A DNA stretch of 64,000 nucleotides from Halomonas sp. JB37 (GTDB lineage: Bacteria; Pseudomonadota; Gammaproteobacteria; Pseudomonadales; Halomonadaceae), in the NCBI RefSeq assembly GCF_002332255.1, contig NZ_NRGW01000001.1:2728001-2792000 (forward strand), read 5' to 3'. Position 1 is the stretch's first letter; each line of letters opens with the position of its first letter. The notes under the pieces were generated by a model. It was not told where the DNA came from, searched no databases, and saw only the letters and a list, made by a program, of their open reading frames with translations. Below are positions 40,056 through 42,341 of this stretch, piece after piece. Position numbers and translations under genes: made by a program.

Positions 40056-40805
40056 ATGGCAACTGCTGACAATGCGCCGATAAAAACACTATATGCCCAC
40101 CACTTGGCAAAAAGTTACAAACGCCGCCGAGTGGTTAAAGATATTAACTTGGAAATCTCCCAAGGCAGCGTCGTTGGCTTACTCGGCCCTAACGGCGCGG
40201 GCAAAACCACGTCGTTTTATATGATTGTCGGGCTGGTCAAATCTGACGCCGGCAAAGTGGGTATTGACGACTTAGATTTAACTCGTGCTCCGATGCATGA
40301 GCGCGCAGCGGCAGGCATTGGCTACCTGCCCCAAGAAGCGTCTATTTTTCGCAAATTATCGGTTGCCGATAACATTATGGCGATATTAGAAACGCGCAAA
40401 GAGCTCGACCGCCCAGGTCGCGAAGAGCGCCTGGAGGCTCTGCTTGAAGATTTCCATATCACCCATATTCGCGACAACCTAGGCATGAGCCTCTCAGGGG
40501 GAGAGCGTCGCCGTGTAGAAATTGCCCGCTCGCTAGCGACCGAACCCGCCTTCATCTTGCTAGATGAGCCCTTTGCCGGGGTTGACCCCATTTCAGTGGG
40601 CGAGATTAAAACCATCATTCGCGCGCTGAAACAGCGCCACATTGGCGTTCTGATTACCGACCATAACGTCCGTGAAACGCTGGACATTTGCGATATCGCT
40701 TATATTGTCGGCGATGGCCATATCATCGCCAGCGGCCCCCCGGCATCTATCCTCACTAACCAGCAAGTCAGGGATGTTTATCTGGGCGCAGATTTTCGTC
40801 TGTAG
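40056..40805 (+). CDS. lptB: LPS export ATP-binding protein LptB
   Basis: LptB is the ATPase that drives LPS extraction by LptB2FG. The 249-residue product has Walker [10 protein letters not shown] (about residues 45-53), a Q-loop region [15 protein letters not shown], signature LSGGE, Walker [14 protein letters not shown] and switch [10 protein letters not shown]. All are intact. It closes the Kdo/LPS-transport run, and lptFG, its membrane partners, are not in this window. A sigma-54-type promoter element lies downstream before rpoN. Confidence 0.96.
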
Positions 40806-40852: not shown

Positions 40853-40868
40853 TGGCATGCTTATTGCA
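40853..40868 (+). promoter_or_regulatory. Sigma-54 (-24/-12) promoter element upstream of rpoN
   Basis: TGGCATGCTTATTGCA matches the sigma-54 consensus TGGCACG-N4-TTGCA with one substitution (T for C in the -24 element). The GG and GC pairs have the required 10 bases between them. It lies on the coding strand between lptB and rpoN, placing the predicted transcription start near 40879 and a leader of about 50 bases before the rpoN ATG. Confidence 0.65.
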
Positions 40869-40928
40869 CTTGCACCCAGCTCCCACTCGCACTAGGGTAA
40901 AGCATTCCGATTAACGAGTGGTTCTCAA

Positions 40929-42341
40929 ATGGTCATGAAAGCTTCTCTTCAACTGCGCATTGGGACACAGCTGACCATGACACCTCAGCTGCAGCAGGCT
41001 ATCGCCCTGCTGCAGCTATCGACTCTGGATCTTCGTCAGGAAATTCAGCAGGCCTTAGATGCCAACCCCATGCTGGAACAGGAAGATGAGTTCGGTGAAG
41101 AGGCCGTAAGCGAGCCTAAAGAGGAGGAGTGGTCAGAGAGCATTCCCACCGAGCTTTCCGTTGATAGCGACTGGTCGGACACCTATCAAGACATTGGCGG
41201 CACTGGCAGCAGCAGCGAGGGCCCTGATTTTGAGCGCCAGGCTGCCGAACAGAGCCTTCACGGCCACCTATTGTGGCAACTCGCCATGACCGATTTTAGT
41301 GTGCGTGAACAGCTGGTTTCCGAGAGCCTCATTGATGCACTAGATGCCAACGGCTATTTGACCCAGCCGCTTAATGATATTCGTGAAGGGCTACGCGCCC
41401 AGGGCATTGATAGCCTTAGCCAGCGCGAAGTCGAAACGACATTATTAAAACTGCAGCAATTCGAGCCCACCGGTATTTTTGCCCGCGACCTGCGTGAATG
41501 TTTGATGCTGCAGCTCGCCGCCCTGCCAGATGATACGCCACTGCTGGTGCCTGCTCGTAGGCTAGTGCGTCAGTTTCTTGAAGCGCTCAGCAAAGATGAC
41601 ATGCGCTTACTCAAGCGACGCTTAGGACTCGATGACGAGCAGCTAGCCGATGTCATACAGCTAATTCGCAGCTTAGATCCACGCCCAGGCAGCGCTTATG
41701 GCGTGACCAACGACAGCTACATCACGCCCGACTTGGTGGTGCGTCATGATAATGAAGGCTGGCATTTAGAGCTCAATCAGGACGCCCTGCCTCGGTTAAG
41801 AATCCAACCTGATTACGCCAGCCTGATAAAGCGTGCGGACAAAAGTCAGGATAATCAGTTTTTGAAAGAACACCTGCAGGAAGCGCGCTGGTTAATTAAA
41901 AGCCTTTCGAGTCGTAACGACACGCTGCTGCGAGTGGGCCGTGAAATCATTACCCGTCAAATCGGCTTTCTCGAACATGGCGAAGAATCCATGAAACCGC
42001 TGATTTTGGCCGATATAGCCGCAGCCGTTGAAATGCATGAATCAACGATTTCACGGGTGACAACGCAGAAATATATTCATACGCCGCGTGGCGTGTTCGA
42101 GCTGAAATACTTTTTCTCTAGCCAAGTGAGTGGCCAGGATGGCGACAGCCACTCCAGTACCGCGATCCGCGCCCGCCTGAAAAAGCTGGTTCACGAAGAA
42201 GCGCCCAGCAAACCGCTTTCTGATAGCCGCTTAGTGACATTATTAGAAGAAGGTGGCATTCAAGTTGCAAGGCGTACGGTAGCCAAATATCGTGAAGCCA
42301 TGGGCATTCCCTCTTCCAGTGAGCGGCGCCGTTTGCGCTAG
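40929..42341 (+). CDS. rpoN: RNA polymerase sigma-54 factor RpoN
   Basis: RpoN directs RNA polymerase to -24/-12 promoters and needs bacterial enhancer-binding proteins for open-complex formation. The 470-residue product has the Gln-rich activator-interacting region I (LRIGTQLTMTPQLQQAIALLQ), an acidic region II (about residues 50-95), the core-binding domain, a helix-turn-helix (about 360-385, IAAAVEMHESTISRVTTQK) and the C-terminal RpoN box ARRTVAKYREAMGI. An ATG at 40935 two codons later is an equally possible start. It is followed by hpf, ptsN, rapZ and ptsO, the usual rpoN neighbourhood. Confidence 0.96.
   Translation: MVMKASLQLRIGTQLTMTPQLQQAIALLQLSTLDLRQEIQQALDANPMLEQEDEFGEEAVSEPKEEEWSESIPTELSVDSDWSDTYQDIGGTGSSSEGPDFERQAAEQSLHGHLLWQLAMTDFSVREQLVSESLIDALDANGYLTQPLNDIREGLRAQGIDSLSQREVETTLLKLQQFEPTGIFARDLRECLMLQLAALPDDTPLLVPARRLVRQFLEALSKDDMRLLKRRLGLDDEQLADVIQLIRSLDPRPGSAYGVTNDSYITPDLVVRHDNEGWHLELNQDALPRLRIQPDYASLIKRADKSQDNQFLKEHLQEARWLIKSLSSRNDTLLRVGREIITRQIGFLEHGEESMKPLILADIAAAVEMHESTISRVTTQKYIHTPRGVFELKYFFSSQVSGQDGDSHSSTAIRARLKKLVHEEAPSKPLSDSRLVTLLEEGGIQVARRTVAKYREAMGIPSSSERRRLR

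Follow-up and report, generated by a model that had tools for sequence, protein, structure and literature searches.

The rpoN locus and its sigma-54 element

The window, that is, the whole stretch of 64,000 nucleotides of Halomonas sp. JB37 that was analyzed, contains an intact gene for sigma-54 (rpoN), whose product has each of the three Pfam domains of sigma-54. The gene upstream of it is presumably lptB, a name given from its position beside rpoN. On the 3′ side of rpoN lie genes with S30AE, PTS EIIA, RapZ, and HPr domains, which are taken to be hpf, ptsN, rapZ, and npr. The gap between lptB and rpoN holds a 16-base near-consensus sigma-54 -24/-12 element, located 47 bases 3′ of the lptB stop and 60 bases 5′ of the rpoN ATG (Table 1). 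The element points towards rpoN, being on the same strand. Its GG (40854–40855) and GC (40866–40867) are separated by a spacer of 10 bases, and the sequence agrees with GG-N10-GC in the TGGCAYG / TTGCW context, from which binding of sigma-54 at this position is predicted. The initial annotation had described a near-consensus sigma-54 element just upstream of rpoN, with all invariant positions present about 60 bases before the ATG, and this description is borne out. In the -24/-12 geometry, transcription usually starts 12 bases past the C of the GC.

Table 1. Features of the lptB–rpoN region, with positions counted from the first base of the window.
Feature	Position	Strand	Basis
lptB (assumed name), upstream, same orientation as rpoN	40056..40805	+	PF00005, PF12399
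Sigma-54 -24/-12 element TGGCATGCTTATTGCA	40853..40868	+	Consensus match, conservation
-35-like hexamer TTGCAC of the sigma-70-type rpoN promoter	40870..40875	+	Pattern, conservation
Predicted start if the sigma-54 element is active	40879	+	Usual distance (12 bases) from the C of the GC
-10-like hexamer TAGGGT, 17 bp past the -35	40893..40898	+	Pattern, conservation
Predicted start of the sigma-70-type promoter	40904..40906	+	Inferred from the -10 position
Untranslated leader ATTAACGAGTGGTTCTCAA, near-invariant in the genus	40910..40928	+	Profile of 46 distinct upstreams
rpoN (sigma-54, 470 aa)	40929..42341	+	PF00309, PF04963, PF04552

The strength of the element was assessed with a -24/-12 scoring matrix built from the consensus (GG-N10-GC, TGGCAYG / TTGCW context), whose maximum is 21.4 bits. 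With this matrix, the rpoN element scores 19.2 of 21.4 bits, more than any other sequence on either strand of the window, and the next match reaches 15.6 bits. It is also the only exact TGGCAYGN4TTGCW in the window; the 3.8-Mb genome has four such sequences, against one for the backwards control. When up to two mismatches are allowed, 23 sites are found in the window and 29.6 are expected. Relaxed sites are not in excess, and the evidence for the element is therefore its strength, position, and conservation rather than the number of such sites. This lack of excess would suit a chance match without function.

Two further sequences at this locus deserve mention. The second-best sigma-54-like match of the window (42254–42269) lies inside rpoN, in the codons just before the RpoN box; it was rejected as a second element, as only 8 of 86 distinct relatives reach at least 11 bits there, and it is probably a coincidence. 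The rpoN leader varies less within the genus than the sigma-54 site does, which may point to translational control.

Conservation within Halomonadaceae

The conservation of the element was studied in 114 Halomonadaceae loci (L005–L118), comprising 80 named records and 34 further genome loci that overlap with them, which were reduced to 100 distinct 220-base rpoN upstreams. A forward site of at least 12 bits is present in 99 of the 100 upstreams and a reverse match of at least 12 bits in one, counts that come from inside one family and are phylogenetically non-independent. In shuffled sequence, a 12-bit site appears at a rate of 0.9% per strand per 220 bases (47/5350, measured on sequences of other families). 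The genus of the window is presumably Vreelandella, to judge by the closest named records. Outside this genus (53 site-anchored upstreams), the TGGCA and TTGC positions hold 1.9–2.0 bits, while the flanks mostly hold 0–0.5 bits. Within the genus, the part of the lptB–rpoN gap that lies 5′ of the site differs in both length and sequence among the sequences listed.

The annotation had named absence of conservation among relatives as evidence against the element; instead, the site is retained while its surroundings drift. Mere inherited identity, like a chance match, was rejected as an explanation of this pattern on account of the fall of the flanks to near zero bits outside the genus. Retention in 99 of the 100 distinct upstreams argues against chance family-wide, and that the element is a chance match without function is extremely improbable. 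The only Halomonadaceae upstream without a site is L071, which comes from a metagenome-assembled genome and keeps TTGCAG-N17-TAGGGT despite the absence of the sigma-54 site.

The adjacent sigma-70-type promoter

One base past the end of the sigma-54 element begins a second promoter-like sequence, TTGCAC-N17-TAGGGT (40870–40898), which is not mentioned in the initial annotation. Its recurrence was measured with the pattern TTGNNN-N16..18-TANNNT, the -35 being required to start between -10 and +40 of the site start, and with a control in which the sigma-54 site was kept and the flanks were shuffled. The pattern is in place in 98 of the 99 Halomonadaceae upstreams that have the site (the exception is L076), compared to 4.4 expected; it was picked after the sequences had been viewed, so that the fit is partly by construction and the control handles composition, not this choice. 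In a profile of 54 upstreams from outside the genus, anchored on the -10, TTGCA and TANNGT are prominent. This conservation suggests that the sequence is an active sigma-70-type promoter. A generic E. coli sigma-70 matrix was also tried; it located the Halomonadaceae promoter poorly, with the -35 of its best match falling within -10 to +30 of the site start in 31 of 99 upstreams, and was replaced by the relaxed pattern.

Tandem sites

In part of Halomonadaceae the site is doubled. The main site is accompanied by a second one of at least 8 bits, at a distance of exactly 18 bp, in 23 of the 99 distinct upstreams; the second site is upstream in 20 of them and downstream in three, and the remaining offsets between -80 and +80 (those below 5 excluded) yield only two second sites. 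Judged by record title, the 18-bp tandems are spread across Halomonas, Vreelandella, Litchfieldella, Bisbaumannia, Larsenimonas, and Aidingimonas; examples are L058, L060, L063, L080, L083, L051, L054, and L057. The locus of the window has a single site with no 18-bp tandem, and none of the 38 forward sites found outside Halomonadaceae is part of such a pair. An 18-bp spacing should be too short for two holoenzymes, and the tandem may consequently increase occupancy or be bound by core-free sigma-54.

Other families of the order and class

The comparison was extended to 145 genomes of the order, from which 84 loci outside Halomonadaceae were taken (24 from the search and 60 picked, mostly one per genus); no rpoN start was found in three of them, and 81 were used. 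Sites of at least 12 bits are forward in 32 of the 81 and reversed in eight. The class-level set consists of 28 new loci, of which 26 were usable (L212 was too short and no start was found in L214); six upstreams have a forward site, three a reversed one, and 17 none at 12 bits. Counted by family at 11 bits, 20 of 37 families have at least one forward site, six have at least one reversed site (one family having both), and 12 have none.

Among the 38 forward sites outside Halomonadaceae, a sigma-70-like promoter is in place in 17 (3.0 expected) and absent in 21. In 10 other-family loci, the TTGC of the -35 is the same TTGC as the -12 of the sigma-54 site, and joint occupancy of the two should therefore be excluded. 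The 11 reversed sites are accompanied by a sigma-70-like promoter in five cases (0.3 expected), four of which belong to a single family, f35.

Another family, f19, which we would guess to be Pseudomonadaceae, shows a different arrangement. Thirty-nine genomes were searched and 30 distinct upstreams were read, 27 of which have a forward site of at least 11 bits (the misses are L281, L292, and L298). In 20 of the 30, TATAAT lies inside the sigma-54 spacer. The best -35 candidate for this TATAAT is TAGGCA-like, at 19 bp, and weak, and the relaxed sigma-70 pattern occurs in two of the 30 upstreams, in neither case placed as in other families. In the f19 loci (L138, L153, L156, L157, and L275–L303), one TATAAT-bearing stretch could serve both sigma factors.

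Reversal of the site in family f35

Family f35 was sampled more densely: 41 genomes were searched and the loci of 31 were examined, one of them with no rpoN start found, which left 30 distinct upstreams (loci L125, L195, and L246–L273). The site, at a threshold of at least 11 bits, is on the reverse strand in 28 of the 30 upstreams and on the forward strand in none; the two upstreams lacking it are L249 and L256. In the f35 profile, the GG and GC positions reach 2.0 bits, and conservation is near 0 a few bases off. A sigma-70-like promoter is found between -30 and +45 of the site start in 29 of the 30 upstreams, mostly as TTGCNN-N18-TACACT starting 19–22 bases past the site start.

In all 28 loci (28/28), the rpoN strand carries an lptB-like ABC-ATPase signature farther upstream, whose stop comes before the site; this signature was used in place of a looser lptB motif, which gave one distance of -131. 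Because the lptB stop precedes the reversed site, transcription starting there would enter lptB in the antisense direction. Downstream of the reversed site, 21 of the 28 loci have an open frame of at least 100 codons that starts within 250 nt; five of these frames were scanned and gave no Pfam match, which is what shadow frames would show.

The reversed motif in f35 presumably binds sigma-54 as well. Being reversed, it cannot drive rpoN there, and the flip is the strongest evidence in this analysis: it suggests that what has been kept is binding beside the promoter, rather than transcription of rpoN from the element. It is conceivable that the site belongs to another regulator and merely resembles -24/-12, or that it is only a part of the sigma-70 promoter architecture. 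This would suit the operator-like way in which the element stays near the sigma-70-type promoter in either orientation across families. However, the invariant positions in both orientations and in f19 are the GG-N10-GC of sigma-54, despite otherwise different sequence, L071 has the sigma-70-type promoter without the element, and RpoN of P. aeruginosa is bound upstream of rpoN (PMC8855297). Taken with these observations, a site for a different regulator or a mere promoter part appears very unlikely.

Enhancers, activators, and other sigma-54 sites

A sigma-54 promoter depends on an enhancer-binding protein, for which the initial annotation had suggested a scan of the 3′ end of lptB and of the region upstream of lptB. 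Third-base entropy in the 3′ end of lptB is flat (46 sequences, 84 columns at invariant four-fold codons) and no enhancer footprint is visible there. An NtrC-type consensus scan of the window gives matches at chance level, the nearest to the locus having three mismatches. The scan and the entropy profile address NtrC-type and nearby enhancers, and a distant or degenerate enhancer would be compatible with both results.

In the genome as a whole, TGGCAYN5TTGCW occurs 19 times, compared to seven times backwards. By a simple open-frame test, seven of the 19 sites are intergenic, namely that of rpoN and L001, L002, L231, L234, L236, and L237. The genes after the six others encode a Peripla_BP_5 protein, an Fe-alcohol dehydrogenase, a product with no Pfam match (L231), an SBP_bac_3 protein, an FAD oxidoreductase, and a cytosine/purine permease. 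A sigma-70-like promoter is in place at one of these six, L236, where the -35 is formed by the -24 itself. Three of the 19 sites (L232, L241, and L245) are identical copies of TGGCACTGGCATTGCT with identical neighbouring translations, and L232 falls in an IS66 transposase frame. The genome also has eight strong and four weak matches to PF00158, the enhancer-binding ATPase, which means that activators exist.

These data bear on the main rival to autorepression, a mixed switch in which the element represses without and activates with an enhancer-binding protein. In this dual-promoter arrangement, the sigma-70-type promoter would give basal expression of rpoN, an enhancer-binding protein such as NtrC would activate the sigma-54 element under nitrogen limitation, and the same site might repress when no activator is active. 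In its favour, the full-consensus site 60 bases before rpoN is in forward orientation, five of the six other intergenic consensus sites precede genes typical of sigma-54 control, and the eight strong PF00158 matches provide candidate activators. In Halomonas bluephagenesis, deletion of ilvA, which mimics nitrogen limitation, is reported to raise both rpoN and glnA (PMC13101641); such a joint rise is not predicted by simple autorepression. A survey of sigma-54 regulons takes the enrichment of rpoN among sigma-54 targets as autoregulation (PMC12316311). Against activation, however, stand the reversed site in 28 of 30 f35 upstreams, which cannot activate rpoN, and the lptB 3′ end with no conserved enhancer signal, together with NtrC-type matches at chance level. 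On balance, the dual promoter is regarded as rather unlikely.

A model of negative autoregulation

The element, the promoter-like sequence adjacent to it, their joint conservation, and the reversal in f35 can all be seen directly in the DNA. The explanation that fits them best is that the element is probably a conserved sigma-54 operator, through which rpoN would be negatively autoregulated via the adjacent sigma-70-type promoter. According to this model, rpoN would be transcribed from TTGCAC-N17-TAGGGT, and sigma-54, as an inactive closed holoenzyme or possibly in free form, would bind the element against the -35 of this promoter. The bound sigma-54 would compete with sigma-70 polymerase at rpoN, and a higher level of sigma-54 would lead to less rpoN transcription, making the locus a homeostat. 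We infer the binding of sigma-54 in this organism, the activity of the promoter, and the sign of the regulation from sequence comparison.

Occlusion of this kind would explain the overlap with a sigma-70-type promoter, the use of either orientation, the promoter without a site in L071, and why no enhancer footprint is seen. The initial annotation, whose title calls the element a promoter, had offered two modes for it, repression of a sigma-70 promoter and positive feedback. The first is favoured by the comparison, through the conserved sigma-70-type promoter that abuts or overlaps the element and the reversed site in 28 of 30 f35 upstreams; the second is less supported and is possible for forward sites.

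Several observations count against autorepression. Ordinary promoters, too, can take the form of strong forward sites close to a gene, and the proteins behind the eight PF00158 matches could activate this one. Twelve of the 37 families have no site at 11 bits, and 17 of the 26 class-level upstreams have none at 12 bits. In addition, 21 of the 38 other-family forward sites lack the relaxed sigma-70 pattern in the required position, and the open frames that follow 21 of the 28 reversed f35 sites could count on the same side.

A broader proposal may be formulated tentatively, as a possibility rather than an expectation. Sigma-54 could be an orientation-independent repressor at its own gene, a homeostat that recurs in many families by site turnover, with the site flipped in the sampled f35 and tandem operators exactly 18 bp apart in part of Halomonadaceae; the overlapping sites would then point to a cooperative array or to binding by sigma-54 free of core, and less to a single promoter-bound polymerase. 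If autorepression is true, a sigma factor that needs an activator acts at its own gene chiefly to repress it. Conserved beside a sigma-70-type promoter, reversed in f35, and duplicated at 18 bp in part of Halomonadaceae, the site constitutes a natural experiment separating promoter from operator.

Comparison with known systems

Autoregulation of rpoN and repression by sigma-54 through overlap are already known. In the literature on rpoN autoregulation, on rpoN of Halomonas and pseudomonads, and on sigma-54 repression, no description was found of the composite arrangement and its conservation, of a flip across a whole family, or of tandems 18 bp apart; this search was not aimed at flips or tandems, and the novelty of the orientation flip and the 18-bp tandem is a lead rather than a finding.

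In pseudomonads, autoregulation by RpoN is reportedly negative. ChIP-seq in P. aeruginosa found RpoN bound upstream of rpoN, and RpoN is said there to regulate its own expression, in a passage that cites Kohler et al. 1994 and gives no sign (PMC8855297). The likeness to the present locus is binding of RpoN upstream of rpoN, detected there by ChIP and represented here by a predicted site. The Pseudomonadaceae-like f19 site mostly holds TATAAT inside, unlike the site of the window.

In Rhizobium leguminosarum, rpoN is stated to be negatively autoregulated (PMC3538637); the likeness is that rpoN limits its own expression, and it is drawn from this statement rather than from site architecture. A possible repressor role for RpoN present in excess is argued in PMC2725144. 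On how rpoN controls itself, the available portions of PMC10621929, PMC2725144, PMC5626770, PMC8577284, PMC3188799, and PMC3162934 contain nothing. The regulon survey reports that genes preceded by sigma-54 promoters are enriched for rpoN in alpha-, beta-, and gamma-proteobacteria as well as in other classes; in its available sections, it infers autoregulation through sigma-54 promoters and is silent on sigma-70 overlap, reversed sites, and 18-bp tandems (PMC12316311).

A further parallel is found in E. coli, where sigma-54 sites overlap sigma-70 promoters (class I/II; argT, chaC, mdfA, and patA were tested) and where, in the portion of the report available, repression by competition for binding was proposed and tested in vitro (PMC4551910). 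The present locus resembles these in the adjacency of the two motifs, which would place its -24/-12 motif within the footprint of a sigma-70 holoenzyme. In contrast to class I/II, the arrangement described here would have rpoN itself as its target, is conserved family-wide, recurs elsewhere, and occurs in places as tandem sites.
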